Part shown: in pieces, positions 9,535 to 24,852 of the stretch | How positions within the stretch are numbered: position 1 is the stretch's first letter | How the letters are laid out: every line of letters begins with the position of its first letter | DNA from: Chryseosolibacter indicum | GTDB taxonomy: Bacteria; Bacteroidota; Bacteroidia; Cytophagales; Cyclobacteriaceae | Assembly (NCBI RefSeq): GCF_018598585.1 | Contig: NZ_JAHESD010000065.1 | Span: 1-32,271 of the forward strand | DNA length: 32,271 nt | Reading direction: 5' to 3' | Position numbers and translations under genes: made by a program | Notes under the pieces: model-generated | The model's database searches: none | Told to the model about the DNA's origin: nothing | The model's input: only the letters and a program-made list of their open reading frames with translations

Positions 9535-12501
9535 TTAATGCGTGTTGTTGTTCTCATGATAAAGGGCATCATACATCACCTGCTGGATTTTAGTGCGGGT
9601 ATTTAACTGATACAACCTTGTGTTGTCGCGTGTAGGATTTACACGATTGGAAAGAAAGATGTACAAGAGGCCAGTTTGAGGATCCATCCAGGTCATTGTA
9701 CCGGTAAAACCGGTATGCCCGAAACTTAGTGGACTGGCGTCTTTTGCTGCATTGTTATTCTCACCCAGATATTTTAAATTCGGTTTATCAAAGCCTAAAC
9801 CTCTTCGATTATTGTTTTCCGGAAATTGATACTTTGTCCATTCCATCAATGTCTCTGATTTGATATAGCGCGTACCTCCGTATTCTCCCATACTCAGATA
9901 CATTTGCATAAGTTTCGCTAGATCATTAGCATTTCCGAAAAGCCCAGCGTGACCAGAAACACCACCTAACATAATTGCACCTTCATCGTGAACAGTTCCA
10001 TGTATTGGCTCATGCCTGAAATAATAATCATGCTCCGTTGGAACGATAGAATTCTTCAGATATCTCTTTCTTGGATTATAAGTAAGGGTAGTTGCACCCA
10101 ATGGCTTGTAAAAGTTCTTATAGATATAATAGTCAAAACTTTCATCAATCATGCTTTCTACAACTCTTGGTGCAAGAATGAAGAAAAAGTCAGAGTACAA
10201 ATATTTCTTTTCCGCTTCTAAAGGAGATTTACGTATCGTATTGACAATCCTGTCAGGGTAGTGCCTATGTAAATACATCTTATCTTTGAGTTTTGTAGGA
10301 AAACGTTTAGATGAGTCACTCTTAATCGTAAACCATTTATACCCGCCATTCTTCTTTACCGTATTCTTGTAAAAAGGAATCCATGGTTTAAATCTTGCTT
10401 GATGCGTTAATATATCAGACATCGGTATATCTGATTTATTTGATCGCTTAAATTTAGGAAGGTAATCAGCGAGGGTGGCATCCAGTTTAAAGTGTCCCTC
10501 ATCATACAACTTCATAAGTGAAGGAAGGCTGGTTGAAATCTTCGTCACAGAAGCAAGATCATATAGATCGGTATTTTTTACTTTGATTGTATCAGCATAA
10601 TCATGATATCCATAACTTTTATACAGTACCACCTTTTTATCTCTCGCTATTAACACCTGGCATCCGGGAATAGCCCGTAAAGACAGCGCCTGGTTTACTA
10701 ATGAATCAACTCGTCTGTAAAGAATACCTGAGTTCATTTGTGCGTCTTCAGGTATTGTGTATTTAAACCGAATTCCTCCATCAACGTCAATTCCTGCGCC
10801 GACAGGAAACTTCTGCCCGATACTTACTGGCAATCTTCCTCGTGCACCTATTCCACCAAAAATAAGTTGTGCTGCAAGTTCCTCCGTGTTCACGTTATCC
10901 TGGTATGTGACAATCAGGGCATCAGAATTTTCAATTGAACTAAGCTTATCAATCACATAAGGATTTTTAAAAACAGAAACAATTGAGCCCTTTCTATTTG
11001 CAACATCAGTAATAAAAGTAAGTACGGGATCTGAAAAGCTAAGTTTATTTAAAGGTCTAATACCATCGTCGTGAATAGCCGCTATTAAGAGGTTATAGTT
11101 CTGAAGCTGCTTTCTTAATGAATCAACCAATTCCGCGTTAGCATCTTTAGGGAGAACGAAATGTTGTACCTCTGTATACAATCCAAGAGTCTTTTGAAAA
11201 GGACTAACGCCATTCTTTCCAATTGAAACCGAAGCAATATGAACTGTGTCGAGTCTTTGCACTGGCAATAAATTGCCATGGTTATTTAACACTGTGATGG
11301 ACTTCTCTATCAGGGTACTATTGAGTAATTGGGCATCAGGAGTAACAAGCTCTCGGGCAATACCTGATGTTTTAACAGGTTGACGCTGCTTTAATCCTAC
11401 TGTAAACTTAATTGCAAGTATCTTCCTGCATTTGTCGTCAATTTCTTTTTGGCTTATTAATTTCTGGTTAATAGCTCTTTTAATCTCTGCAATAGTTCGT
11501 GACACATCTTCCGTAAATTCTAGCATGTCATTGCCGGCAATGATGGCATCTCGGTCTACAATACCTGGAGGATTACTTGATGTTACTCCTTTCATATTCA
11601 TCGCATCCGTTACAATCAGTCCTTTAAATCCAAGATCTTTCCTTAAGAGATCTGTAATGACTTTTCTTGACAGTGTTGAAGGCAAGGAAGAAGAATCTAG
11701 GGCAGGAATATTCAAATGAGCCACCATCACTCCGCCTATCCCAGCCTTAATAACTTCTTTAAAAGGATAAAGCTCGAGTGAGTCCAGGCGGGCTCTCGAA
11801 TGATTTATCTGAGGCAATGCATAATGAGAATCAGTGCCTGTGTCTCCATGACCTGGGAAATGCTTTGCAGTGGTAAGTATACCATTATCCTGCATCCCTT
11901 TCATATAAGCAATTGCCTTTCGGGATACATTTCTTTTGTCTTCACCGAACGATCTGTAGTTAATAACAGGATTACTTGGATTATTATTGACATCAACTAC
12001 TGGGGCAAAATTTATGTGAACACCTGATCGTTTAAGTTGTCTCGCAACTTCAACGCCAAGGTTATAAACAAGACTATCATCCTGGATTGCACCAAGTGTC
12101 ATTTGATAGGGAAAACTGATTGTACTATCCAACCGCATTCCCAAGCCCCATTCTGCATCCATTGCAATCAATAGAGGAACTTTAGATGTAGCCTGATACT
12201 CATTGATAAGCCGGGCTTGTCTGCCAGGGCCTCCTTGAAAAAAAATCAACCCTCCTATCTTTTGCTCCCGAATTAACTTCAATATCTCTTGCTTATGGGC
12301 TTCATCTCTGTTTGAGTAAGCCGCAACCATGATGAGTTGTCCTATCCTTTCATCTATCGTCAAGGTGTTAAACACAGAATCGACCCAGGACTTATGTGAT
12401 GAATTAATGAAGGGAACATCAGAACCTGGAAGGTGCTGTGCAATGGATAACTGAGAAACAAAAGAAAGAATAATTAAAAGTCTTTGATATGCAGTCCTCA
12501 T
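9535..12501 (-). CDS. Exported GH3 beta-N-acetylglucosaminidase (NagZ type) fused to serine hydrolase/beta-lactamase domain
   Basis: This is a 988-residue two-enzyme protein. A Sec signal peptide (about 1-21, SIA/QH) implies periplasmic or outer-surface action. The GH3 domain (about 35-370) has the NagZ motif KHFPGHGDTGTDSH (213-226), with the Asp224-His226 dyad found in NagZ-type enzymes, and the nucleophile Asp299 in VTDAM. A GH3 C-terminal-like region follows (about 390-585). The second half (about 600-985) is a PF00144 serine hydrolase with SVTK (S651, K654), YSD in the YxN position and HTG (929-931). In B. subtilis the separate neighbours NagZ (YbbD) and AmiE (YbbE) do these two jobs: removing non-reducing GlcNAc, then cutting MurNAc from the peptide. 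The fusion suggests both steps occur in one protein. The serine hydrolase specificity is inferred. A terminator separates it from susD. Confidence 0.9.
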   Translation of the reverse strand: MRTAYQRLLIILSFVSQLSIAQHLPGSDVPFINSSHKSWVDSVFNTLTIDERIGQLIMVAAYSNRDEAHKQEILKLIREQKIGGLIFFQGGPGRQARLINEYQATSKVPLLIAMDAEWGLGMRLDSTISFPYQMTLGAIQDDSLVYNLGVEVARQLKRSGVHINFAPVVDVNNNPSNPVINYRSFGEDKRNVSRKAIAYMKGMQDNGILTTAKHFPGHGDTGTDSHYALPQINHSRARLDSLELYPFKEVIKAGIGGVMVAHLNIPALDSSSLPSTLSRKVITDLLRKDLGFKGLIVTDAMNMKGVTSSNPPGIVDRDAIIAGNDMLEFTEDVSRTIAEIKRAINQKLISQKEIDDKCRKILAIKFTVGLKQRQPVKTSGIARELVTPDAQLLNSTLIEKSITVLNNHGNLLPVQRLDTVHIASVSIGKNGVSPFQKTLGLYTEVQHFVLPKDANAELVDSLRKQLQNYNLLIAAIHDDGIRPLNKLSFSDPVLTFITDVANRKGSIVSVFKNPYVIDKLSSIENSDALIVTYQDNVNTEELAAQLIFGGIGARGRLPVSIGQKFPVGAGIDVDGGIRFKYTIPEDAQMNSGILYRRVDSLVNQALSLRAIPGCQVLIARDKKVVLYKSYGYHDYADTIKVKNTDLYDLASVTKISTSLPSLMKLYDEGHFKLDATLADYLPKFKRSNKSDIPMSDILTHQARFKPWIPFYKNTVKKNGGYKWFTIKSDSSKRFPTKLKDKMYLHRHYPDRIVNTIRKSPLEAEKKYLYSDFFFILAPRVVESMIDESFDYYIYKNFYKPLGATTLTYNPRKRYLKNSIVPTEHDYYFRHEPIHGTVHDEGAIMLGGVSGHAGLFGNANDLAKLMQMYLSMGEYGGTRYIKSETLMEWTKYQFPENNNRRGLGFDKPNLKYLGENNNAAKDASPLSFGHTGFTGTMTWMDPQTGLLYIFLSNRVNPTRDNTRLYQLNTRTKIQQVMYDALYHENNNTH

Positions 12502-12704: not shown

Positions 12705-14546
12705 CTACCAGCCCTTGGTCTGAGTAAGTGTATAACCACGTTCCAGATATTGACTGATTTCATTGTTTCCAACGGGGGCTAAATACACTCTGTCATTAAA
12801 TGGATCTCTGTTAGCAACATTTTCAGGAATATAAAAACCTACCATGTCTGCCGCATTCGATCCGTTATATGTAACTACAGTACCATCTGCTTTTTTTACT
12901 TTCAGTAGATTCACCTTCGCGGGAATCAGCCAGTCAATAGTTTTAGCGGCTTTCTCAGCTGGAAAGTCAACCCAAGGGCCAAGAAGGATGTCAGGATTTG
13001 TTACACCATTCATATATTCAATTTTCTTCCAACGCTTAATATCCATCAAGCGGGTATGTTCAAATACAAATTCCATTCTACGCTCTCTTCGTATTTCCCA
13101 AATGAGAGCTGGCACATCAGCATCGCGATCAGGGTCATCTGGCAACGCATTGATGTCAAGAGAAGCAGTTTTTACAACTCCCTTTTCTACGGCAAGCTGA
13201 TCGAGCGGACGACTCCTTATTGCATTGATCGAGGCATCTATGTCTCCTTGAGTTACAGCGGTGCTTCCTATCGTTTCCAATTCGGCTTTTGCTTCAATCC
13301 AGTTTAAAACAACTTCGCCTAAACGCATTACAGGGGCATCGTTTGTATTAGTATTTGATCCATACTTGGGTGGGTACGTTCCTCCTGCAAATGTGGGGCC
13401 CTCCCTGTCAATAAATTTGTCTGCGTACAACAAAGTTGCAGATTGCGTCCTCGGCACATCCCAGAACGTAGCTTCGAAACGTGAATCACGTGTACGCTGA
13501 AGCGTCCTGATATCAAATTTAACCGCATCTGCTACGGACGAATGCTGGTAAGGCTGACCATCAGTGGTGATAAAAGATTTTACGAGATCGAGATTTGCAG
13601 CAGGGGTTTGACTTTCAGTAATATTTGAATATGATGCTATACTGTGCGTTATTCCTAAAGCAGCGTCATACTGCCTGTACATGAGCACTTCACGATTACC
13701 TTCTAAACTCTCTGATCCGAACAGCGCTCTAAAGGTGCTTCCAAAATTCCATTTACCAGCTTTCATCACTAGGTCTGCCGCTATCACAGCCAACTCAAGA
13801 TATTGTTTTGCTTTCTCGGAATTCCCAAGGTGATATTTCTGCCAGGTACCTTCGTATAACATGAAACGAGAGATAAAGCCTGCTGCAATATGTCTGTTTA
13901 AATATTGGCTGTTACCGTTGTCAACTAAACGCATGTTATCCAATGCATACACAAAATCGTCATATACCTTGTCCATAACAAGTGTTCTGTCGTCTCTGTC
14001 CTTATACATCTCGGTCTGCTCTTCTTCCCGTAATACATGATCGTAGTAAGGTACATCTCCAAAAACACCAACAAGACGGCTATATTCAAAACCTCTGAAA
14101 AAACGGGCAACAGAACTCCAGTGTAGATATGCTTCATCTGTTAGATATGCGCCTTTCATCTCCTCTACATTTTCCAGCATCATGTTTGATTTTCTCACCC
14201 AGGTATAGTTCCAGGTAGGACCGGCATAAGTGGTTAACCAATCTGCAGTTTCTGTTAAAGATGATCTAGATGGTGGTGCCTGAATTTCAAAACTCGTTTG
14301 TTTTCCTGTTGATGTAAGATCATCAGAAAAGGTATATCCCCTGAGAGGTGCGTAGTTAAGGGTAAATCCTGTATTATATCCTGCAAAATAATTCGAGTAA
14401 AAACCATTTGCGAATAACCTTACGCTGTTTTCGGTTGTCCATAAGTTCTCTTCCTTCATTTGACTTAATGGCGGTCTGTCAAGAAAATCATCACAACTGC
14501 CAAGAACAAGCGCGATTGCCAATATTATAATAGAATATTTTTTCAT
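12705..14546 (-). CDS. SusD/RagB-family outer-membrane lipoprotein
   Basis: This 613-residue surface glycan- or peptide-binding lipoprotein is the partner of the SusC porin upstream. The signal peptide ends in a lipobox LGSC, giving lipidated Cys18, followed by DDFLDRPP, the usual SusD start. The rest fits the RagB/SusD fold in length and pattern, including the C-terminal region with IRRERRMEFVFEHTRLMDIKRW, a hallmark of the family. The start lies 13 nt after the susC stop, so the two are co-transcribed. SusD proteins act as a lid over the SusC barrel and bind the ligand to be imported. The neighbouring NagZ, NamZ and GHL10-type enzymes suggest peptidoglycan fragments as the ligand, but the sequence does not show the ligand directly. 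Confidence 0.94.
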   Translation of the reverse strand: MKKYSIIILAIALVLGSCDDFLDRPPLSQMKEENLWTTENSVRLFANGFYSNYFAGYNTGFTLNYAPLRGYTFSDDLTSTGKQTSFEIQAPPSRSSLTETADWLTTYAGPTWNYTWVRKSNMMLENVEEMKGAYLTDEAYLHWSSVARFFRGFEYSRLVGVFGDVPYYDHVLREEEQTEMYKDRDDRTLVMDKVYDDFVYALDNMRLVDNGNSQYLNRHIAAGFISRFMLYEGTWQKYHLGNSEKAKQYLELAVIAADLVMKAGKWNFGSTFRALFGSESLEGNREVLMYRQYDAALGITHSIASYSNITESQTPAANLDLVKSFITTDGQPYQHSSVADAVKFDIRTLQRTRDSRFEATFWDVPRTQSATLLYADKFIDREGPTFAGGTYPPKYGSNTNTNDAPVMRLGEVVLNWIEAKAELETIGSTAVTQGDIDASINAIRSRPLDQLAVEKGVVKTASLDINALPDDPDRDADVPALIWEIRRERRMEFVFEHTRLMDIKRWKKIEYMNGVTNPDILLGPWVDFPAEKAAKTIDWLIPAKVNLLKVKKADGTVVTYNGSNAADMVGFYIPENVANRDPFNDRVYLAPVGNNEISQYLERGYTLTQTKGW

Positions 14547-14559
14547 GATTTCTTATGTT

Positions 14560-17500
14560 TTAGAAGCTCAATTGAAGACCTACTGATGCACTTTTAAAAG
14601 TTGGAACTCCAACTCCCGTACGCCCCGAATTATAATTTGCATCATCCCGCCACATAGAGACTCCTGAAACTACTTCAGGATCTATTGGGAGATCTCCTAA
14701 GTGGTGGAAGGTGAAGAAATTCTCCAATGAGCCATATATACGAACCTTAGATAAGTGAACTCTTTGAGTAAGAGACAATGGTAAAGTATATCCTAAAGTT
14801 ATGTTCTTGATTCTCAAATATGCCATATTGAGCAAATACCTTGTCTGCGGCTGCATATTTAAAGTAGTGCTACTTCCGGCTTGATTATAAGGTCTTGGAT
14901 AGAAAGCGTTAGTTCGGTCTTCGCGCCAGAAGTTACCAGCAAAAGCTTGAGGCATCGCCCCATCAGCTGCATTAAAGCCGGGAATTGCCAAAAAGCCTTC
15001 TCCCCATAGTTCTCTCTTTCCTATACCCTGAAAGAAAATATTAAAATCAATTCCTTTGAAGTCTGCTCCTGCCCTAAAGCTATATTCATACCGTGGCGTG
15101 GAATTACCAATTACTTTTAAATCGCCATGGTCATCGAGTAATCTGTTTCCATCATTAATAACACCATCGCCATTCAAATCTTTAAACTTAACGTCACCAG
15201 GTCCAAATCTGAAGTTACCTGATTGCAACTCTTCCTGAGTTGCACCATTTTCATCTGCGAGCTGATTTATGGTAACTCCATTTACAACAGTAGTTACTAA
15301 TTTCCCATTGCCGTCATATATAAAATCATTGCTTTGGTAAAGTCGATCGGTCTCATATCCCCATATTTCACCATATGTTCTGCCAACATACCACGATGGA
15401 CTTGTTACTGTACCGATACTCTTCGTACTGCCGTACTTGGTGATCTTGGTAACTGCGTCTGCGAACGTACCTACAAAATTCAATCGAAGCCCATTCTCGA
15501 ATTGATGCGTATAATCAAGCTGAAGTTCTATGCCTTTCGTTCTTAAAGAACCAAAGTTACTTTGGGGTGCCTGGTTTCCAAAGGTAGCAGGAATACCTTC
15601 CATGGGAACAATCATGTTTTCTGTATCACGCCTGAACCAGTCAAACGCAATTCCTAAAGCGCCCTTTAGCACCCTAACGTCTGCGCCAAGATCTAGTGTG
15701 GTAATGTCCTGCCAGGTTACAGATGATGAAACAGCAAGTGGCGTACTATAACCTGGAGTGGCAGGAGCAACTGTGGGCGCACCAAATTGAAAGAGTCTGA
15801 CTCCTGAAACTACCCAGTTTGTAAGACCTCCGTTAAGAAGAGGAAGATAAAGGTTGTTCGGTACTGACTGATCACCGATTGTTCCCCATGATCCGCGTAC
15901 TTTAAACTCATCAAGAAACGCGCTGGCCCAATCCATCCACGACTCTTCACTTACTCGCCATCCCGCGGAGAATGACGGGAACCATCTCCATCGCAGATCT
16001 TTCGGAAATTTAGAAGTACCATCATACCTCATGTTGGCTTCTAATAAATACTTCTCTTTATAATTGTAGTTAACACGGCCGAAGAATCCCAGTTGAGAAT
16101 CCCAGTACTCGGCACCACCGGCAGTTTGCGTCCCACCTGCAAGATCAAATTGAGGGTTTGAAATGTCGGCTAACGCGGTAATCTGTGACCAGTTAGAAGC
16201 GTACTTATATCCTACCCTGTTCATACCCAACATAAACTTGAAGTTCTGGTCTTCGTTTAAACTTAGGTCATAAGTAGAAAACAAATTAATCGTATTGCGT
16301 TGATCGTTTTGAGCGATACGATATACATGATCTGGGTTAGCACCAGGAGCGGTATATGTGGTTTGATTCAATTTGAACGCAGGCATTGTTCCGGGGTCAG
16401 TAGCAGCAACTACCTCACCTGCATTATTCACATATATCCTGTTTCCGTTTTCATCATTTTTAGGAACTGCCGCGCTCCAGGAATCTCTTGCAGTAAAGCG
16501 CGTACCAGGTCGCTTGCTAATGTATTCTTCATTAGCATGAGTAAAATCAAATTTGATCGTCCAATTCTTTATTGGAGTAATTGTTAGCCCTCCGTTCAAA
16601 GTTGTATAATTTCTCTCTTGGAAAGCAGTATTTGCTGCAGCAATTTCATAAGCAGGGCTTCTAATAGGATCACCATCCTCCGTAGTCATAGGATAAGTAG
16701 ATGCCCACCTGTATAAATACAACCATGGATCAGCAGTTGTTGAGTTGGTAGCGTATGCATAATTCTTTACCCTTTTAGAATAGATCGCTCCAACATTAAA
16801 CTTCAACCACTTATTTACTTCCGTACCAATTTGAATAGATCCATTGTATCGACTAAAATCATCCTTCTTCGCGGGCTTAATCAAACCAGTTTGATCGAGA
16901 TAACCAAAACCAAGATTGTAGTTTGTTTTTCCGCTAAGCCCATTCACTGAGAAATCATGTATTTGAGTAGGAGTCCATTCCTTAATCATGTATTCATAAG
17001 GATCATACATTCTTAATCCAACTTTTTGAGCGTTAGCATTTACATACCAGTCACGTCCATACAGCATAGGATCATTAGGCTTCACAATATCGCCCCATTG
17101 TTGCTGCCATTCCTTAGCTTTCTCATATCCTTCCCTTGTAACATACCAAAATGCACCCGACGCAGTACTGCCAACACGTTCAGCAGCAAGTAGGGTGTAC
17201 TCCATACCATCAATCCCTGCCATCTTCATTTCCTTTGAAAGATTTTGGAAAGAAAGATTTCCCTGATAAGAAACAGTAACGCCTTCCTTTTTTGCGCCTT
17301 TCTTTGTCGTTATTAATATTACCCCAAAGGCACCTTTCGCACCGTAGATTGACGCCGAAGCCGCGTCCTTCAATACAGATATTGACTCAATATCGTTAGG
17401 ATTTACTAATTGAAGAGATGGGATTTCAACGTTGTCAAGCAGGATTAAAGGAGAAGCACCTCCTTGCATGGAGGCAAACTGACCACGAATCCTTATTAGG

Positions 17501-17994
17501 GGATCAGAGCCCACTTCACCACTTGGTATTACTATATTTAGGCCTGGAGTTGAACCTTGAAGGCCGCGTCCTACATCTGCAATAGGTCGCGACTCTAATA
17601 CCTTTGTATCAACTGATGCTACCGCCCCTGTAAGGTTAGTTTTCTTCTGCTCACCATAACCAACAATAACAATTTCTTCAAGGCTTTTGAGATTCTCTTT
17701 AAGTGATATCGTTATGTCGCTAGACGCACCGGCCGTTTGTTCATAAGTCTCCATTCCAATGAAACTAAAAACAAGAACATCATTAGGTTCTGCGACGATT
17801 GAAAACCTTCCATCGCTATCTGTCACCGTTCCGCGCGATTTACCTTTTAAAGCAACTGTTACTCCGGGAAGTGGCGTGTTGTTGGAAGCGCTTATTACAG
17901 TTCCTGTTATTGTATTACTTTGAGCAACACCTTGGAAATGGAATAGGAGAAAACCTATTAACCATAGTGAAGAACATCGTAAAAATTTTTTCAT
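14560..17994 (-). CDS. SusC/RagA-family TonB-dependent outer-membrane transporter
   Basis: This 1144-residue protein is a TonB-dependent import channel. It has a Sec signal peptide (about 1-24, ending VAQ), a CarboxypepD_reg-like domain (about 28-100, ITGTV...TPLPGVTV), a conserved segment EEIVIVGYGEQKK (106-118), a plug domain (about 118-225) and a C-terminal beta-barrel that ends in phenylalanine (VGLQLSF), as outer-membrane barrels do. It would carry SusD-bound oligomers into the periplasm using TonB energy. No extra N-terminal STN domain is present, so it is probably not part of a sigma/anti-sigma FecR system. Its own promoter carries the shared 41-nt element. The 43-nt leader predicted from the -7 box is short. 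Confidence 0.95.
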   Translation of the reverse strand: MKKFLRCSSLWLIGFLLFHFQGVAQSNTITGTVISASNNTPLPGVTVALKGKSRGTVTDSDGRFSIVAEPNDVLVFSFIGMETYEQTAGASSDITISLKENLKSLEEIVIVGYGEQKKTNLTGAVASVDTKVLESRPIADVGRGLQGSTPGLNIVIPSGEVGSDPLIRIRGQFASMQGGASPLILLDNVEIPSLQLVNPNDIESISVLKDAASASIYGAKGAFGVILITTKKGAKKEGVTVSYQGNLSFQNLSKEMKMAGIDGMEYTLLAAERVGSTASGAFWYVTREGYEKAKEWQQQWGDIVKPNDPMLYGRDWYVNANAQKVGLRMYDPYEYMIKEWTPTQIHDFSVNGLSGKTNYNLGFGYLDQTGLIKPAKKDDFSRYNGSIQIGTEVNKWLKFNVGAIYSKRVKNYAYATNSTTADPWLYLYRWASTYPMTTEDGDPIRSPAYEIAAANTAFQERNYTTLNGGLTITPIKNWTIKFDFTHANEEYISKRPGTRFTARDSWSAAVPKNDENGNRIYVNNAGEVVAATDPGTMPAFKLNQTTYTAPGANPDHVYRIAQNDQRNTINLFSTYDLSLNEDQNFKFMLGMNRVGYKYASNWSQITALADISNPQFDLAGGTQTAGGAEYWDSQLGFFGRVNYNYKEKYLLEANMRYDGTSKFPKDLRWRWFPSFSAGWRVSEESWMDWASAFLDEFKVRGSWGTIGDQSVPNNLYLPLLNGGLTNWVVSGVRLFQFGAPTVAPATPGYSTPLAVSSSVTWQDITTLDLGADVRVLKGALGIAFDWFRRDTENMIVPMEGIPATFGNQAPQSNFGSLRTKGIELQLDYTHQFENGLRLNFVGTFADAVTKITKYGSTKSIGTVTSPSWYVGRTYGEIWGYETDRLYQSNDFIYDGNGKLVTTVVNGVTINQLADENGATQEELQSGNFRFGPGDVKFKDLNGDGVINDGNRLLDDHGDLKVIGNSTPRYEYSFRAGADFKGIDFNIFFQGIGKRELWGEGFLAIPGFNAADGAMPQAFAGNFWREDRTNAFYPRPYNQAGSSTTLNMQPQTRYLLNMAYLRIKNITLGYTLPLSLTQRVHLSKVRIYGSLENFFTFHHLGDLPIDPEVVSGVSMWRDDANYNSGRTGVGVPTFKSASVGLQLSF

Positions 17995-18043
17995 GGATTT
18001 AAATGGGTTAGGTTTAAGTTTTTTAGTTACTCACGCAACCACC

Positions 18044-18106
18044 CAAATTTTCCTTATTCTTAAAGGAATTGCATCCCTGAAAATGGTGATTTAAAAATAT
18101 CACTGA
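18044..18106 (-). promoter_or_regulatory. susCD promoter with shared activator-like element
   Basis: On the minus strand, AAATCACCATTTTC followed by AGGGATGC runs 18092 to 18071. Nineteen nt later comes AAAATTTG (18051-18044), a near-consensus -7 box; the element's 5' edge is 41 nt from the box. No TTTG is found at the -33 position. A further half-site TCAGTGAT lies six nt upstream (18106-18099), giving an ATCAC/GTGAT dyad. The same layout occurs before the kinase gene, and the 41-nt element before namZ and the phosphoesterase gene. Confidence 0.7.
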
Positions 18107-18166
18107 TTTCGTTCTGTGATATGAACGAGAACCTGGTAAGTAAATTAAGGAAAGGCGCCGAACTGA

Positions 18167-19705
18167 TTATCTTCTTTTAATTGAGCCCCGTTTACCCCTT
18201 GTTTTTATAGAGACAGATGTGTTGTTTGTACTCTCATTGTGAAGTCGGTCTACAGCTGTGACAACATAAGTGTATTGCTTTCTTTTTTGTGTTTTGTTAT
18301 CCGACCATGATTGAATCTCATAAAAATTCCGAAACACTATCGCTTGAATTTTGGACGGGTCATTAAGGTTAAGTGTATCTGATTTATTAAACCTGTAAAC
18401 AATATAATAGGTAGCATCGGTAAGCACAGAATCTCTCCATGTTAGTAGTAAACCATGGCCTTGTGAACCACTTATGTTCTCTAAAACGGGCTTAGCCGGT
18501 GGTATTGAATCGATCCACCCCATGACAGGAATTAGTGCCTGATGAGGATACATCTCTTTCAACCTATCTCTTATTCCGTTCTTGTTTTGAAGAAATACTT
18601 TCGCACTAAAGAACATGCTTCCGTTCACATCCGTATTACTTCTGTTTAACCTTATCTGGTTATTTAGTTCATCAGGATTCTCCCATCCTTTACCTCCTAT
18701 TCTATAAGCACCTTGCCCTATGTATAAATGTTTTCCATACGTATGCCTGCTCCACCAATCCAGAAGAACGGTATAATCAGCAACTTTAAAACCTATATTC
18801 CAATATAATTGGGGTGCAACATAATCTATCCATCCTTCTTTGAGCCACTTCAGTACATCAGCATACAAGTCATCATAATTTGTTTGACCAGCCTGCGTAT
18901 CAGAGCCATCAACGTCTTTGTTTTTGTTTCTCCATACACCGAAAGGACTTATTCCGAATTTTACGTGTGGCTTTTCAACTTTGATTCTTGTTGATAGCTC
19001 CTTCACAAAATAATTAACATTCTCGCGCCTCCAATCATCTCTGCTTTCGTTATTTACTACTCCGTGCGTATAATAGGCACAACTGTCTGGAAATTCTTCA
19101 TTAGCGATACGATAAGGGTAAAAGTAATCATCAAAATGAACGGCGTCTAGATCATAATGCTTAACTGTTTCCATGATCGACTGCAAAACAAACTCCTGGG
19201 CCTCCTTGTTGCCTGGATCATAATACCATTTACCTCCGTATTTTAAAAACCACTCTGGGTGCTTATACGCCGGATGATTCGCATCAAACTGATATTTATC
19301 CGACATGCTTACACGATAAGGATTAAACCAGGCATGAAACTCTAGCCCTCTTTTTCTTGCCTGCTCAATCATAAAAGCAAGTGGATTATAATATGGAGAA
19401 GGACTTCGACCCTGAATCCCCGAAAGATATTCTGACCAGGGTTCATAAGAAGAAGGATAGAAAGCATCTGCAGTTGGACGAACCTGCACGATAACTGCAT
19501 TCATTCCTGCCTCCTTTAGAATATCAAGCAATTTTACATACTCCTGTTGTTGTTGATAACTATTCAATCCCTTTTGCGATGGCCAATCAACATTAACAAC
19601 ACTGGCAATCCACGCAGCCCTCAATTCCCTCTTGGGATGCAACTGAGCACACAACAAATTTGAAGTAAATATGAAGACAAGTGAGAAAAAAAAGCGGTTC
19701 GTCAT
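18167..19705 (-). CDS. Exported GHL10-family glycosidase (PF02638, YngK/DigH-like) with C-terminal FnIII-like domain
   Basis: This 512-residue protein has a Sec signal peptide (1-20, cleavage after CA before QL) and begins its mature part with the family's ELRAAWIASVVNVDWPS. The barrel domain (about 27-395) contains VQVRPTADAFY (74-83), FHAWFNPYR (123-131) and the acidic motif HFDDYFYP (190-197), all typical of PF02638. A fibronectin III-like domain (about 400-500) and a basic tail follow. The best-studied member, E. coli DigH (YddW), cleaves peptide-free peptidoglycan strands, so a role in cutting denuded glycans is a reasonable inference here. It starts 31 nt after the kinase stop and is probably co-transcribed with it. 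Cys19 is not in a proper lipobox (LLC), so it is unlikely to be a lipoprotein. Confidence 0.9.
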   Translation of the reverse strand: MTNRFFFSLVFIFTSNLLCAQLHPKRELRAAWIASVVNVDWPSQKGLNSYQQQQEYVKLLDILKEAGMNAVIVQVRPTADAFYPSSYEPWSEYLSGIQGRSPSPYYNPLAFMIEQARKRGLEFHAWFNPYRVSMSDKYQFDANHPAYKHPEWFLKYGGKWYYDPGNKEAQEFVLQSIMETVKHYDLDAVHFDDYFYPYRIANEEFPDSCAYYTHGVVNNESRDDWRRENVNYFVKELSTRIKVEKPHVKFGISPFGVWRNKNKDVDGSDTQAGQTNYDDLYADVLKWLKEGWIDYVAPQLYWNIGFKVADYTVLLDWWSRHTYGKHLYIGQGAYRIGGKGWENPDELNNQIRLNRSNTDVNGSMFFSAKVFLQNKNGIRDRLKEMYPHQALIPVMGWIDSIPPAKPVLENISGSQGHGLLLTWRDSVLTDATYYIVYRFNKSDTLNLNDPSKIQAIVFRNFYEIQSWSDNKTQKRKQYTYVVTAVDRLHNESTNNTSVSIKTRGKRGSIKRR

Positions 19706-19736
19706 TTACTCAACTGTAATTTAATGTTGAAAACAG

Positions 19737-20600
19737 TTAATTGTTATTCACTGGTACAGTTGTACAATGATACTTTACCAATCCATCCATAGGATGCTGC
19801 ACGATCTGCTCAATAATAATTCCCATGTCCTCTGCTGTTTCCTGTAAGTAACCACTAAAATTATGAGCGACGGAACCAATGAAACTGACTTTTATCTGTT
19901 TTTTAATATGCGGATAACGCAACACGTAATAAAGAAAAAACTTACTGAAGTTTCCCAATATAATACTTCTTAATTCCGGCACCATAGAATATTTTAATAA
20001 GAACGGAGTAAATGAAGCTAAGAACTTGTTGGGAAGAGGCCTATTGTAAATACTGTCAAGTATCGTAGCCCGATCTAGTTGGTAAGTATGTTTGAAATCT
20101 TCAAGGATCTGCGAAGGGAGTTTTTCCTGTAACAGTAAAGCTAGTAAATCTTTACTCATTACGGTACCGCTACCCCAATCTGAAAATATGTAGCCTAATG
20201 AGGGCATAATATTAGCAATTTCACGACCATTGTATAGACATGAATTAGCACCTGTGCCAAGAATACATGCAATACCTTCTTCGTCTTGAAGCAAACTTCT
20301 TGCTGCACCTAAAATATCACCACAAACTTCAGCGGAAGTCTTAGCTGGGACAACTGCATCTATTGCGTCCCTCACCTGTATTGCCTTTACAGGTAAACCA
20401 CAACCCGCTCCGTAGAAGAACACTCTTTCTACACCTTTTACCTGAGGTAAAACCTTTTGTTCAATGGTTGAAGCGATTTTTTCAGTAGTTAAAAAATAAG
20501 GATTAAGTCCTTCTGTAATTATAGTAGTTATAGTATTGCCTATATCATCCACTAATCTCCATTCCGTTTTTGTTGAGCCACTATCAGCTATTAAGAGCAT
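19737..20600 (-). CDS. BadF/BadG-family amino-sugar kinase (GlcNAc or MurNAc kinase)
   Basis: This 287-residue cytoplasmic ATPase of the BadF/BadG/BcrA fold belongs to the group that includes N-acetylglucosamine kinase and the clostridial MurK. Seen in the sequence: the phosphate-1 loop ADSGSTKTEW (5-14), FYGAGC (62-67), the likely catalytic aspartate in VCGDILGAARSL (D95), the phosphate-2 loop LGTGANS (114-120) and SDWGSG (140-145). It would phosphorylate the free sugar released by NagZ- and NamZ-type enzymes, trapping it inside the cell. Which of GlcNAc or MurNAc it prefers cannot be told from sequence alone. It leads a two-gene unit with the GHL10 glycosidase and has its own promoter with the shared element. 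Confidence 0.88.
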   Translation of the reverse strand: MLLIADSGSTKTEWRLVDDIGNTITTIITEGLNPYFLTTEKIASTIEQKVLPQVKGVERVFFYGAGCGLPVKAIQVRDAIDAVVPAKTSAEVCGDILGAARSLLQDEEGIACILGTGANSCLYNGREIANIMPSLGYIFSDWGSGTVMSKDLLALLLQEKLPSQILEDFKHTYQLDRATILDSIYNRPLPNKFLASFTPFLLKYSMVPELRSIILGNFSKFFLYYVLRYPHIKKQIKVSFIGSVAHNFSGYLQETAEDMGIIIEQIVQHPMDGLVKYHCTTVPVNNN

Positions 20601-20655
20601 AATACTAGTTTATTAGAAAACCTATCAAGAATCGATTCTATCCATCCAAATCAGA

Positions 20656-20718
20656 CAAAGATTGGTTTTCTAATTATCGTAGGCATCCCGGAAAATGGTG
20701 ATTTGGCAGAATCACTGA
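20656..20718 (-). promoter_or_regulatory. Kinase-GHL10 promoter with shared activator-like element
   Basis: On the minus strand AAATCACCATTTTC followed by CGGGATGC runs 20704 to 20683, one mismatch from the susC copy. Its 5' edge is 41 nt from AATCTTTG (20663-20656), the -7 box. TCAGTGAT lies six nt further upstream (20718-20711), the same spacing as at susC, and overlaps the TGA stop codon of the response regulator gene. Confidence 0.7.
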
Positions 20719-21347
20719 ATTAACCGCTGTTTATAAGCATTATTAACCAATTCAGCGGTATTCTTAGCTTTCAATTTATAAAGAAGATTCTTTCGATGGG
20801 TTTCAACAGTATTTTTACTAATGAAAAGCTTGTCTGCTATCTCATGGGTTGTAAGACCTGATGCTATACATTCAAGTACTTCTTTTTCCCTATCCGACAA
20901 TTTTTCTAGCATCTGCTCGCCGCTATGACTTTTCATAAAACTGTTGAGCAAAGTTTTACTGGCTTCCTCACTCAGATAATTGGAACCCGATTGTAATGAG
21001 GCAATTGCGCTAAGCAAACTTTCTTTTCCTGTATTCTTTAATACATACCCGCGCGCACCAGCCTTAAGAATGTCTGAAATGTAGTCCCGGTCATTATACA
21101 TTGAGAGGCCAAGGATTTTAACAGATGGATGTTTTTTAGATAACTCTCTGGATGTTTGTATGCCATCCATTTGCGGCATGTTTATATCCATTATTACAAT
21201 ATCGACATCTTCATGAGAACATATTTCTAGAACTTCATATCCATTCTTCGCCTCCCCTACCACACACATATCTTTTTCCTCAACTAAAAGTGATTTAAGG
21301 CCGTCCACAAACATTTGATGATCATCAGCTATCAATACTTTAACCAT
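20712..21347 (-). CDS. NarL/FixJ-family response regulator
   Basis: This 211-residue two-domain transcription factor has an N-terminal receiver (1-120) with the acidic pair D8-D9, phospho-acceptor D54 in VIMDINMP, S82 and K104, and a C-terminal LuxR-type HTH (about 149-205) with LSDREKEVLECIASGLTTHEIADKL and the recognition helix region SKNTVETHRKNLLYKL. All receiver residues needed for phosphorylation are present. No kinase gene is adjacent, but the HisKA_3 kinase at the far end of this cluster is of the type that pairs with NarL-family regulators. It is divergent from namZ across a 301-bp gap and ends just before the kinase promoter. It is a candidate binder of the shared promoter element; this is inference. 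Confidence 0.94.
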   Translation of the reverse strand: MVKVLIADDHQMFVDGLKSLLVEEKDMCVVGEAKNGYEVLEICSHEDVDIVIMDINMPQMDGIQTSRELSKKHPSVKILGLSMYNDRDYISDILKAGARGYVLKNTGKESLLSAIASLQSGSNYLSEEASKTLLNSFMKSHSGEQMLEKLSDREKEVLECIASGLTTHEIADKLFISKNTVETHRKNLLYKLKAKNTAELVNNAYKQRLIQ

Positions 21348-21648
21348 AAAGCTTCGTTAGATGAGTTAATATAGTAAAAGATTTAAGACCAAAACATTAA
21401 AACCTTATGGAATCACAAATAGCCGCTCTTTATTTTTCTTTTTCGAAACTAAGCATATGTCATACAGTGCTAGTTCAGAAATTACTTTTTCCATATAACA
21501 ATTTTTAAAAACGGTACTTTAAATCACTGTTTTTGGTGAGCAATAAAAAGAATGAGTATTTTAAATTTGATCTAAACTTGTTCACTACTCCTGGATTGAT
21601 CTAACATAAAAGAATTATAATAAATATCTTTAAAACACCTCTCAGATA
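21348..21648. other. 301 bp divergent intergenic region (response regulator / namZ)
   Basis: It holds the namZ promoter with the shared element (21521-21569). No clear -7/-33 pair was found for the response regulator gene on the minus strand, and no small gene is evident. The region is strongly AT-rich. Confidence 0.6.
21521..21569 (+). promoter_or_regulatory. namZ promoter with shared activator-like element
   Basis: AAATCACTGTTTTT followed by GGTGAGC (21521-21541) is a TCAC-N8-GTGA dyad. Its 5' edge is 41 nt before a perfect TAnnTTTG box, TAAATTTG (21562-21569). This is the plus-strand counterpart of the susC and kinase promoters. The predicted leader to the ATG at 21649 is about 75 nt. Confidence 0.65.
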
Positions 21649-22863
21649 ATGAAAACTATTATAACCTTCTCCCTCCTTCTTCTGGTATTTTTATTTTTCT
21701 CAGCACGTTTAAGGAGCAATGATAATCTATCCACTAGTACGGAAATTGTAACTGGAGCTGACCAGGTAGATCAATATATCGGTTATCTTAAAGGAAAGCG
21801 AGTTGGAATGGTGGTAAATCAGACATCGATTATAGGCAATACTTTAAGTGTAGATAGCCTTCTTTCCCTTGGAATTAATGTAACAACCATTTTTGGTCCA
21901 GAACATGGTTTTCGTGGTAATGCAAGTAACGGTGCATTTGTACAAGATGAGATAGACACAAAAACAGGCAAGCGGATTATTTCCCTCTACGGAAAGAAAC
22001 GAAAACCTTCTAAAGAAGATCTTGATCTTATCGACGTGATGGTGTTCGATTTCCAGGATGTCGGCTGTAGGTTTTATACCAATATCAATACTTTGGCTGA
22101 TGTAATGTCTGCCTGTGCGGAAAACGGAAAAGAGCTATTAATTCTAGATAGACCAAATCCCAATGGATATGTAGATGGCCCAGTGCTGGACATGTCGCTC
22201 ACTTCTGCCATTGGAAAGTTTCCTATTCCTATAACCCATGGCATGACTATAGCAGAATTTGCGCTAATGCTTAATGGCGAAGGATGGCTTGAGAATAAAC
22301 AGAAATGCAAACTAAAAATTATAAAAGTTGCAAACTACACGCATGATATGTCTTATACATTACCCGTGAAGCCTTCTCCAAACCTCAATACTCAGCAAGC
22401 AGTTCTGCTATACCCTTCGCTTTGTCTTTTTGAAGGCACTACGCTTAACCATGGAAGAGGTACCTATATGCCATTTGCAGTGCTTGGCAGTCCTGAACTC
22501 AAAGGAAAATATGATTTCTCATATATACCAAAAAGCATTCCCGGCATGAGTGAGAATCCCTTACATCAGGACAAAGCTTGCTATGGCATTGACCTTAGAA
22601 ATTATGATACACACACGTTACATAAAAACGGAAAGATAAACCTACAATGGCTTTTCGAACTGTATAATGCTTATCCGGATAAACAACATTTTTTTAGCAC
22701 AGTTCAGGGCACGCAAATGGGAAACTTTCATAAGTTAGCAGGCACTACTCTATTGAAAGAACAAATTGAAAAAGGGGTTCCTGAAGAAGAAATTAGAAAG
22801 AGCTGGGAGCCAGGACTCTCTAAATACAAAGAAATGAGGATGAAATATCTCTTATATCCTTAG
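21649..22863 (+). CDS. namZ: Exo-beta-N-acetylmuramidase NamZ (DUF1343, GH171)
   Basis: This 404-residue exported protein has an N-terminal hydrophobic signal (about 4-18). It carries the full set of DUF1343 landmarks: GMVVNQTS (53-60), FGPEHGFRG (82-90) with the conserved Glu85, FDFQDVGCRFYT (133-144), LDRPNPNG (166-173), ITHGMTIAE (195-203) and KPSPNL (241-246). Length matches the family. NamZ of B. subtilis (YbbC) releases MurNAc from the non-reducing end of glycan chains and works with NagZ and AmiE, whose counterparts are fused in the GH3 gene of this window. It is transcribed alone, from a promoter with the shared element, and ends in a hairpin that overlaps its own stop codon. Confidence 0.9.
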   Translation: MKTIITFSLLLLVFLFFSARLRSNDNLSTSTEIVTGADQVDQYIGYLKGKRVGMVVNQTSIIGNTLSVDSLLSLGINVTTIFGPEHGFRGNASNGAFVQDEIDTKTGKRIISLYGKKRKPSKEDLDLIDVMVFDFQDVGCRFYTNINTLADVMSACAENGKELLILDRPNPNGYVDGPVLDMSLTSAIGKFPIPITHGMTIAEFALMLNGEGWLENKQKCKLKIIKVANYTHDMSYTLPVKPSPNLNTQQAVLLYPSLCLFEGTTLNHGRGTYMPFAVLGSPELKGKYDFSYIPKSIPGMSENPLHQDKACYGIDLRNYDTHTLHKNGKINLQWLFELYNAYPDKQHFFSTVQGTQMGNFHKLAGTTLLKEQIEKGVPEEEIRKSWEPGLSKYKEMRMKYLLYP

Positions 22864-22890
22864 TTGTAAAATAATACCAAGGATATAAGA
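22850..22890. terminator. Bidirectional terminator-like hairpin between namZ and the phosphoesterase gene
   Basis: TCTTATATCCTT (22850-22861) and AAGGATATAAGA (22879-22890) form a perfect 12-bp stem with a 17-nt loop. The left arm includes the last namZ codons and the first base of its TAG stop. The plus-strand side is followed by a T-containing but not pure T-run. Its position between convergent genes supports a shared terminator. Confidence 0.55.
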
Positions 22891-22905
22891 CTTGTTATTC
22901 AGATT

Positions 22906-23958
22906 CTATTTCACTATCTTCTGAGCTGCGCTTATTTCTTGTTCTCGAAGCTCTTCCTGCTGTTTCTCAAAAGCTTCGTATTCCGCTATTCGCTGGCGCT
23001 CAAGGCTATCTTCTGGCTCCAGGTGGTGTTGCCATTCAAAAATGCGCCGCTCCCAACGGAGGGTTTCTCCCGAAGTGTAAAATACCGTATATCCTGGCAT
23101 AAATCCTTTCCAGTTACCTCCCCACCACGCCGCGCTTACTGATTGGCTTGTTATATACCATATACCTTTGTAGAAAAAATCTTCCGGCACATGACTGTGC
23201 CCCTGCAATACTGCCTTTACATTATGCCTTTCAATAATCTTCCTGAAGTTTACAGTATCTTCTACAACCATATGGCCAAAGGGATTAAACTTGGGATCAC
23301 CATTCATTTGCCCAAGATGACAGAAGGCTGCAATATGAGTCATCACTACAGTAGGCATCTGCGAATGTTTGCCCAAATCAAATCGCAACCACTCTAACTG
23401 CTGCTCACCAAAAGCTCCCTTGTAAGTTATCCCATGTTCTCCTTCTACAGGATGAATGGAATCCATTACAACAAAATGCCAGCCTTTGTGATTGAAGCTG
23501 TAGTAGCTTTCTCGCATGCCAAGCTTGTCCATAATAAGTTTTTTACCTAAATCGGGATCATCTGTAGATACCTTTCTGCGCGAATGCCAGCCCAATACAT
23601 CATGATTTCCAATAGAATTATAATAAGGCATTTTTAATTTATCAGACGCATTTTTATAAAGTTCAATCTGGTCGACAAACTCATCTTTAGCTGTATAATT
23701 CCCGTCAAACGCCAGATCTCCTCCCATTAAAACAAAATCAGCAGACCTATTATTCTTATTAACCGCGTCAATGCAAGCCTGATAACCAATATGTCCTTGC
23801 CTCTTTCTGCGTACATGCATATCAGTAAGGTGAAGGAACGAGAATCCATCTTTAGCAATCTCTCTCTCTGTCATCAAATCAACAGGCTTCAGCAGACCAA
23901 GGCTTACGCTTGCGAAGATCTTCTTTATTGCACTTCTTCTATGGCTAAAACTATTCAT
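22906..23958 (-). CDS. Exported calcineurin-like metallophosphoesterase
   Basis: This protein has 350 residues when started at the ATG 23958-23956. The longer frame to 24021 uses a TTG lying inside the predicted -7 box and is unlikely. The N-terminus MNSFSHRRSAIKKIFASVSLGLL resembles a twin-arginine signal (RRSAIK plus hydrophobic stretch). Metallophosphoesterase motifs are complete: DMH (46-48), GGD (79-81), GNHD (117-120), a downstream THIAAFCH and GHSH. Such enzymes hydrolyse phosphomonoesters or phosphodiesters using two metal ions; the substrate is unknown. It is convergent with namZ and shares the 41-nt promoter layout, suggesting co-regulation with the peptidoglycan genes, perhaps for phosphate-containing wall material or nucleotides. 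Confidence 0.85.
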   Translation of the reverse strand: MNSFSHRRSAIKKIFASVSLGLLKPVDLMTEREIAKDGFSFLHLTDMHVRRKRQGHIGYQACIDAVNKNNRSADFVLMGGDLAFDGNYTAKDEFVDQIELYKNASDKLKMPYYNSIGNHDVLGWHSRRKVSTDDPDLGKKLIMDKLGMRESYYSFNHKGWHFVVMDSIHPVEGEHGITYKGAFGEQQLEWLRFDLGKHSQMPTVVMTHIAAFCHLGQMNGDPKFNPFGHMVVEDTVNFRKIIERHNVKAVLQGHSHVPEDFFYKGIWYITSQSVSAAWWGGNWKGFMPGYTVFYTSGETLRWERRIFEWQHHLEPEDSLERQRIAEYEAFEKQQEELREQEISAAQKIVK

Positions 23959-24264
23959 CTTTAAATTCAAATTAATATGAGGTAAATATCCGTTACTTAA
24001 TAAAGTTTTTTGGTAAGACAAATGTTATGATAATACTAAATAATTCCATCACTGAAAACTGGTATTCACCGCGCATCCATTATCTCTTTTGGTACACTCA
24101 GTGGTACAAGTAGCAACAATTCAACCGTGCTCTACCGAATAATATAGATGAGCCTGTATCCTTAAGTTGGTAGTTTCAGCCTTCTAATTTTGATATACCA
24201 GATGATAAAATATCGGAGAAACATATTATCATTACGGGCGTTGGTATGTTTTGTCCTACTATTT
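23959..24264. other. 306 bp divergent intergenic region (phosphoesterase / TetR)
   Basis: It holds the phosphoesterase promoter (24019-24067) and, on the plus strand, a TAATTTTG box (24185-24192) that fits the TAnnTTTG consensus and could serve the TetR gene. No -33 TTTG was found at the right distance for that box, and no small gene is evident. Confidence 0.5.
24019..24067 (-). promoter_or_regulatory. Phosphoesterase promoter with divergent copy of the shared element
   Basis: On the minus strand GAATACCAGTTTTC followed by AGTGATGG runs 24067 to 24046 and matches the susC element at 15 of 22 positions, including TTTTCAG and GATG. Its 5' edge is exactly 41 nt from AACATTTG (24026-24019), a -7 box of the same (T/A)AnnTTTG form. 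The match is weaker than the other three, but the spacing is identical. Confidence 0.5.
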
Positions 24265-24852
24265 ATGGAAGATTCAAAAGTAAAAATTATCCTGGAGGCT
24301 GCAAAAAAGAGGTTTGCTCATTATGGACTTGCAAAAACGGCAATGAATGAAATTGCTAACGACATTGGAATGTCAAAGGCTTCCTTGTACTACTACTTTA
24401 AAGACAAAGATCAGATTTTCATAGCAGTAGTTGAACAGGACATCAACGAATTTGTAAAAGTCATTGAAGAAGTGGTTGAACGACCAAGCAAGGCCTCCTT
24501 TAAATTAAAAAAATATATCACGTTAAAGAATAATTTACTTATCAAGCTAATCAACCTTGCTAAGGTAGAAACATTTAATGCCGCAGATGTTTTTAATCCG
24601 GTATACGATGAATTAAAATTTAATTTTTTCACAAAAGAAAAAGTATTAATACAAAAAATCTTCGGACAAGGTATTGAGCAGAAGGAGTTCAATAAATTTC
24701 CTGTTGAGCAATATGCCGAACTTTTTTTAACGGTTACCGGAGGCTTGCGAACCATTGCTCTGGCAACACCTGGAGTAGCCCAAACCCAGGAAAGAGTGAA
24801 TGAACAAACTGCACTCTTTTTAGACATCTTCCTAAAATCAATACGTCCGTAA
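24265..24852 (+). CDS. TetR-family transcriptional regulator
   Basis: This protein has 195 residues from the ATG at 24265 (MEDSKVKIILEAAKKRFAHYG). The open frame extends to a TTG at 24190, but that codon lies inside a TAATTTTG promoter box and the extra residues do not look like TetR. The N-terminal HTH is clear (about 15-50): TAMNEIANDIGMSKASLYYYFKDKDQIF. The C-terminal part is the variable ligand-binding and dimer domain. It lies 244 nt before a second TetR gene that leads an RND operon, with no close partner of its own. It may act on the efflux operon or on a distant target. Confidence 0.88.
   Translation: MEDSKVKIILEAAKKRFAHYGLAKTAMNEIANDIGMSKASLYYYFKDKDQIFIAVVEQDINEFVKVIEEVVERPSKASFKLKKYITLKNNLLIKLINLAKVETFNAADVFNPVYDELKFNFFTKEKVLIQKIFGQGIEQKEFNKFPVEQYAELFLTVTGGLRTIALATPGVAQTQERVNEQTALFLDIFLKSIRP

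Follow-up and report, generated by a model that had tools for sequence, protein, structure and literature searches.

A candidate NarL-type activator and its palindromic operator at -33-less promoters of a putative cell-wall-scavenging locus in Chryseosolibacter indicum

One contig of Chryseosolibacter indicum (NZ_JAHESD010000065.1), whose full 32,271 nucleotides (nt) are the window analysed here, raises a question of gene control. Four of its promoters, on both strands, carry copies of one sequence element in front of a -7 box; which protein reads this element, and which functions does it govern? A first-pass annotation had pointed out the four elements and their boxes, 41 nt apart in each case, and had proposed a dimeric activator and a local regulon. 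Our analysis of the window, of its source genome (5.8 Mb, 99.4% complete) and of related genomes leads to a reading that we consider highly likely, though drawn from sequences: a NarL/LuxR-type response regulator encoded between these promoters binds the element and activates promoters that lack a -33 motif, which serve a regulon for scavenging peptidoglycan and N-acetylmuramic acid (MurNAc).

All four elements and boxes are present in the sequence where they had been described. On the minus strand, the susC promoter (18044–18106) consists of an upstream half-site GTGAT (18103–18099), a palindrome (18092–18071) and the -7 box AAAATTTG (18051–18044), and the kinase promoter (20656–20718) has the same parts at 20715–20711, 20704–20683 and 20663–20656, the box reading AATCTTTG. 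The namZ promoter (21521–21569), on the plus strand, holds the palindrome at 21521–21542 and the box TAAATTTG at 21562–21569; its upstream half-site is not clear. The phosphoesterase promoter (24019–24067, minus strand) joins a degenerate palindrome (24067–24046) to the box AACATTTG (24026–24019). This copy had been called the weaker one, and it does score only 13 bits; a stronger, 22-bit copy precedes the 82% identical orthologue in a locus of the same genus (L125), with the identical box AACATTTG at the same distance. Counted from the start of AAATCAC as offset 0, the eight-base box begins at offset 41 in all four window promoters. The first-pass annotation recognised the palindrome and overlooked the third half-site GTGAT, which lies 8 nt upstream of it in the susC and kinase copies and is not clearly present in the namZ and phosphoesterase copies. 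In the kinase promoter, the response regulator gene ends inside this half-site with its TGA stop codon; since the upstream GTGAT also stands in intergenic DNA before susC, it is not merely a by-product of coding.

A 21-nt matrix built from nine sites, three of them from the window, matched the two strands of the window at 10 bits or more only at the four promoter copies. Sixty Markov-simulated windows gave a mean of 0.13 matches of at least 12.9 bits, and none had TTTG at the right offset. Across the source genome, the element combined with TTTG at the set distance gave three exact matches and one match with a single mismatch, all four in the window. Elsewhere there were 15 two-mismatch matches (the reversed pattern gave seven in all), and this whole-genome scan found no match with fewer than two mismatches outside the window. 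The simulation and the scan led us to reject a chance origin of element and box. The first-pass annotation had allowed that the element might be strewn at random over the genome; with at most one mismatch, the composite occurs at the four window promoters only. Searched alone and with another pattern, the element had three exact matches genome-wide, all in the window, and 16 one-mismatch matches outside it, compared with four for the reversed pattern. Because 15 of these 16 overlap an open reading frame of at least 80 codons, and no outside composite has fewer than two mismatches, we rejected these copies as a wider regulon. The genome holds one local set of four sites.

The anatomy of operator and promoter was profiled in 83 distinct sites, in whose finding the box played no part. 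The profile reads GTGATT at -11 to -6, AAATCMCTR-TTTT-CAGGGATG at 0 to 20 and.AnnTTTG at 41 to 48, and the most frequent form in relatives is AAATCCCTR-TTTT-CAGGGATG. Written as GTGAT-N8-ATCMC-N8-GKGAT, the operator has three half-sites of alternating direction at a 13-bp step. TTTG stands at offset 45 in 64 sites and TTTG or TTTA in 71, while no other offset between 21 and 66 has TTTG in more than 4. One site (L122:790) falls within a coding frame and was excluded when the sites were grouped by genus and target; among the resulting 26 groups, drawn from 82 sites, TTTG at this offset had a majority in 20 and TTTR in 24, and the other offsets tried in at most 4. On the reverse strand, TTTR occupied the mirrored place in 2 of the 83 sites, and we rejected the idea that one palindrome serves promoters on both sides.

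Sigma-A promoters of Bacteroidota carry a -33 TTTG besides the -7 box TAnnTTTG. The sites depart from this pattern at both elements. Only 7 of 83 boxes begin with T, with AnnTTTG otherwise kept, and at offsets 21–25, where we looked for the -33 motif, TTTG starts in 1 of 83, in agreement with the earlier remark that it is missing. A sigma-70 scan, with 26 matches against 19.9 expected, was uninformative. These features bear on the possibility that the regulator is a repressor that blocks the -33 region until a signal relieves it. The downstream half-site does overlap the -33 position, as such a repressor would have it, but these promoters have no -33 TTTG that could be blocked, their boxes seldom begin with T, and the spacing is rigid. 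From the missing -33, the rare first T and the rigid spacing we would instead expect activator-dependent promoters, and we judge repression very unlikely.

According to passages of PMC9723704, the -7 box TAnnTTTG of Flavobacterium psychrophilum maps at -12 to -5. With the box so placed, the palindrome ATCMCYR-TTTT-CRGKGAT would be centred at about -42.5, one base away from the -41.5 of the first-pass annotation, and transcription is predicted to start near 18039 (susC), 20651 (kinase), 21574 (namZ) and 24014 (phosphoesterase). The offset to the -7 box that is fixed in 71 of 83 sites, the overlap with the -33 region and the absence of a -33 motif together give the geometry of a class II-type activator site. 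The dimeric activator proposed earlier fits everything tested, and we infer both the dimer and the activation from the layout of the sites.

The palindrome might instead act in RNA, as a terminator or leader hairpin. ATCCCTG-TTTT-CAGGGAT could pair over 7 bp around a UUUU loop, and several genomes place it directly behind the stop codon of the regulator gene. However, pairing and covariation were no higher than in shuffles, with one pair broken in 17 and another in 26 of 46 sequences; a pattern scan found no terminator-like match at the sites, and Rfam none in 17900–24300. Moreover, the palindrome lies at a fixed distance upstream of the -7 box and so outside the transcript of that promoter. 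The pair counts, the scan and Rfam led us to reject the hairpin, which we think has next to no chance of being correct.

We examined conservation with a pattern scan of 148 genomes of the family and with regulator and model searches of 390, the source genome included. The scan gave 23 matches in 16 genomes, compared with five for the reversed control; 14 of the 23 fall in nine genomes with an orthologue of the window's response regulator, and several adjoin its close relatives, with the box again at 41. The regulator search (E ≤ 1e-60) had a match in 31 of the 390 genomes, of which 30 form a clear group: the source genome and 29 others at 63–87% identity, in nine genera. In all 30 the element lies near the regulator, typically immediately behind its stop codon, where a MurK-like kinase gene follows; it also precedes susC wherever the relative's stretch includes that gene. 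The conservation in related genomes on which the first-pass annotation had staked its proposal is thus borne out. A borderline regulator with 52% identity (genome G101) has no site above 17.1 bits at its locus. A named species collection agreed: among 80 loci kept of 161 candidates, 13 had regulators at 63–87% identity and the next 47% or less, the 13 coming from Algoriphagus, Anditalea and further members of this group; the one species looked up in each of the two named genera belongs to the Cytophagales.

For a fair test, we built a matrix from the sites of five genomes and scored it on loci of other genomes. All 22 loci fetched by their regulator reached at least 26.4 bits, as did three loci first found by pattern. 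The control set began as 70 loci with other NarL-type regulators, from which the 4 shorter than 8 kb were removed; one of the remaining 66 reached 19 bits (L159, 19.5 bits, just behind a 46% identical regulator). In a first control of 73 loci, five had reached 19 bits: L084–L086, which were pattern-fetched, L072, which is a NamZ locus, and L159, which was kept in the second. A 36-nt model without the box, built from 46 chosen of 71 distinct 36-mers, matched at E ≤ 1e-5 in 30 of 30 orthologue genomes and in none of the 360 others (best other 1.4e-5); having been trained on these loci with a cut-off set afterwards, it demonstrates absence elsewhere more than presence here, and at E ≤ 0.05 it matched in 217 of the 390 genomes. 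Of the 148 genomes, 11 have a kinase orthologue (at least 49% identity), and these 11 are the ones that have the regulator; 19 of 19 loci fetched with distant kinases have no site above 11.5 bits.

The association extends beyond the family. In a search of 291 genomes of the order, five regulator homologues with 54–66% identity turned up in three genomes of another family, and three of these five loci (L278, L280 and L281) have a site of at least 20 bits, with TTTG at 45, before susC or the kinase gene. At the loci of two more distant homologues (47–48%) no site was found. The local regulon proposed earlier fits this conservation in nine genera and in three of the five second-family loci, together with the uniqueness of the sites in the source genome and their fixed offset.

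Which protein, then, reads the element? The response regulator gene (20712–21347, minus strand) encodes a receiver (Pfam Response_reg, 2.2e-30) and a GerE helix-turn-helix (4.8e-21), the domain pair of the NarL/FixJ type. Of the window's own proteins, only this regulator and the sugar kinase have relatives in 30 of 30 loci; SusC has them in 25 and the histidine kinase in 23, counts for which some stretches stop at contig ends. The helix-turn-helix reads LFISKNTVETHRKNLL, with at least 95% conservation at each position across orthologues. Because it is linked to the sites in 30 of 30 loci and its helix-turn-helix is nearly invariant, the response regulator is the best candidate binder, and the element is very probably its docking site. 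The first-pass annotation had listed it among the candidates for binding without singling it out, and had overlooked the cell-wall function discussed below. The likely sensor partner of the regulator would be the histidine kinase of the same locus (5284–9435, minus strand; 1383 aa), in which Pfam recognises a STAND-like ATPase (AAA_16), HisKA_3 and HATPase_c; both the linkage and the HisKA_3 type point to it. We rejected the two TetR regulators (24190 and 25064) as binders, since a search of the other 29 loci for relatives of the window's own regulators turned up none of theirs.

Several observations weigh against the response regulator as reader of the sites. The regulator, the kinase and the sites travel together, and co-occurrence cannot fully separate a regulator from its targets. 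Many of the loci in the 66-locus control belong to distant phyla. In the g48 genus, only 1 of 10 sites on the regulator's far side has TTTR at 45. In the second family, L282 offers no more than two weak copies, of 12.6 and 5.0 bits and selected by eye, before the kinase and GHL10 genes, both with TTTR at 45, and at L279, whose regulator is 61% identical, no site was found in 20 kb. NamZ relatives with 61–72% identity (L041–L048) lack a site with a box, so that membership of namZ is not general; a 19.5-bit match in L041 lies inside the namZ relative. Finally, the narrow pattern matches nine times in seven genomes, among the 148 scanned, that have no regulator orthologue, and the core palindrome occurs near other NarL-type systems.

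The last two observations also favour another activator that is not linked to the sites, such as a global regulator resembling CRP/FNR or AraC, with the linked response regulator controlling something else, for these palindromes too stand in genomes without the orthologue. Such an activator is hard to reconcile with model matches at E ≤ 1e-5 only in genomes that have this regulator, with a composite that occurs in its own genome, at one mismatch or fewer, only at this locus, and with the failure of the two TetR genes to accompany the sites. A CRP/FNR-type operator reads TGTGA-N6-TCACA, whereas our sites run ATCAC ... GTGAT, with the half-sites in the opposite order. We therefore regard an unlinked activator as unlikely and retain the linked response regulator as the probable binder.

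The core palindrome was seen near other pairs of NarL-type regulator and HisKA_3 kinase, with regulators 30–47% identical to the one studied here, at L254:1149, L255:4497, L256:8456 and 13146, L259:4288, L261:8175 and L159:10657. None of these seven palindromes has TTTG at offset 45, and three have TTTA. They hint at a wider family of similar operators. In one relative (L070:9680, G132:C26), a second SusC gene, only distantly related and encoded on a different contig from the regulator, also has a copy in front of it, which suggests control in trans.

What would the regulon do? The predicted susC unit, on the minus strand, comprises SusC, a TonB-dependent outer-membrane transporter (14560–17994), the SusD lipoprotein (12705–14546; 13-nt gap) and, downstream of susD, a GH3 and beta-lactamase-like fusion (9535–12501; Pfam and NCBIfam), which N-acetylhexosaminidase and PBP4B models match under their cut-offs. 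The predicted kinase unit, also on the minus strand, starts with a BadF-type sugar kinase (19737–20600), followed after 31 nt by a GHL10 glycosidase (18167–19705). The Pfam BcrAD_BadFG match of the sugar kinase lies just under the cut-off. Among solved chains it has six matches (206–229 bits), including 8ow9 and 8ow7, which are Tannerella MurK and K1058 according to passages of PMC10465942; these scores do not discriminate a MurNAc kinase from an N-acetylglucosamine kinase. The other two proposed members are the exo-beta-N-acetylmuramidase NamZ (21649–22863, plus strand) and a metallophosphoesterase (22906–24021, minus strand). The TTG start listed for the latter falls within its own -7 box, and the true start is probably the ATG at 23958, which fits the length of the L125 orthologue (345 aa). 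Assignments other than that of the kinase are from Pfam. Membership of namZ and of the phosphoesterase rests on the window and one relative each, L125 for the phosphoesterase and L264 for namZ, where a 78% identical NamZ has a site with TAGTTTTG at 41.

The window itself encodes NamZ and the MurK-like kinase; an SIS protein and amidases were seen only in a relative. In the g48 genus the site also precedes Amidase_2 genes (tested with Pfam in L080), and L080 encodes two Amidase_2 proteins, an SIS protein that we read from its GKRP_SIS_N domain as probably of the MurQ type, an SSF transporter, a polysaccharide deacetylase and a GH9 enzyme. Together with NamZ, GHL10, the GH3 fusion and the MurK-like kinase, these genes lead us to infer peptidoglycan and MurNAc scavenging as the function of the regulon.

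Other genes near the sites or the locus were noted. In L263 (4249–8043) and L264 (4703–8497), a site separates the histidine kinase gene from a divergently oriented gene for a 1264-aa protein with phosphodiester glycosidase (NAGPA) and metallophosphoesterase domains, which were assigned in L263 only. In both fetched g79 genomes (L262:6045 and L270:6798), a palindrome of 27–30 bits without a box lies by genes around that for isocitrate dehydrogenase kinase/phosphatase (AceK by Pfam in L262 only). The window's locus is flanked by an ABC/M1 pair and by a TetR/RND efflux set; in the former, a 1202-aa protein (1661–5269) combines ABC-2 membrane domains with a peptidase M1 domain and adjoins an ABC ATPase.

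We propose the following mechanism. The 1383-aa STAND-type kinase, encoded at the end of the susC unit, would sense a cytoplasmic cell-wall metabolite. The phosphorylated response regulator, probably dimeric, would bind the palindrome at about -42.5, and may make a further contact at the upstream GTGAT where present, at the same 13-bp step. The palindrome's downstream half-site sits where the missing -33 element would be, which would make the regulator an activator of the class II type, working on a promoter that has only an imperfect -7 box. Four units would be switched on, supplying SusCD uptake across the outer membrane, the GH3 fusion, GHL10 and NamZ hydrolases, the MurK-like kinase and the phosphoesterase. 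If the STAND kinase is co-transcribed with susC, positive feedback would follow. The comparisons support this mechanism well, and its components, a NarL-type activator and a class II-type placing, would be of known kinds.

With NarL, VraR, DevR/DosR and LuxR the system shares a receiver, a GerE helix-turn-helix and a dyad operator centred near -42; the nearest solved chains to the response regulator are VraR, NarL, DesR and DevR. The lux box of LuxR lies near -42.5. The present system differs from NarL, VraR, DevR and LuxR in the -33-less -7 promoter and the STAND-type sensor, and probably also in the ATCMCYR-TTTT-CRGKGAT palindrome with a third half-site. Like the SusR, hybrid two-component and extracytoplasmic function (ECF)-sigma systems of Bacteroides polysaccharide utilisation loci, it would control a SusCD-centred uptake locus. 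ECF-sigma control of such loci works through a sigma/anti-sigma pair, which this locus is not; and in contrast to a hybrid two-component system, kinase and NarL-type regulator are separate here, and the helix-turn-helix is of the GerE and not the AraC type. SusR-like and hybrid two-component systems are described in PMC3878776, in whose main text a term search found neither LuxR nor NarL. The gene content recalls the murTKQ operon and peptidoglycan-scavenging cluster of Tannerella forsythia, with a MurK-type kinase, NamZ and, in the g48 relatives, a MurQ-type SIS protein (PMC10465942, in passages, which mention no regulation of that cluster); the present locus differs in its SusCD pair, GH3 fusion, GHL10 and linked two-component system with its own operator. 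In a literature search of partial coverage, we found no description of this operator, of a strict register on a -33-less Bacteroidota promoter or of a STAND-kinase cell-wall regulon.

A broader proposal, which we hold to be about evenly balanced between right and wrong, is that this locus represents a class of nutrient regulon not described before. In such a class, a pair of STAND kinase and NarL-type regulator would read cytoplasmic cell-wall fragments and use an operator of three half-sites, held in strict register with the -7 box, to activate promoters that lack a -33 element, as one instance of a wider NarL-type set that uses CCCTG/CAGGG-type palindromes. The regulators usually described for SusCD loci are SusR, hybrid two-component and ECF-sigma systems; for a separate NarL-type system over such a locus, our analysis supplies a defined operator, a candidate for the regulator and a list of predicted targets. 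The strict register opens the way to direct tests of how activators act on the unusual -33/-7 promoters of Bacteroidota, and the regulon points to a possible way in which environmental Cytophagales sense cell walls and scavenge them.

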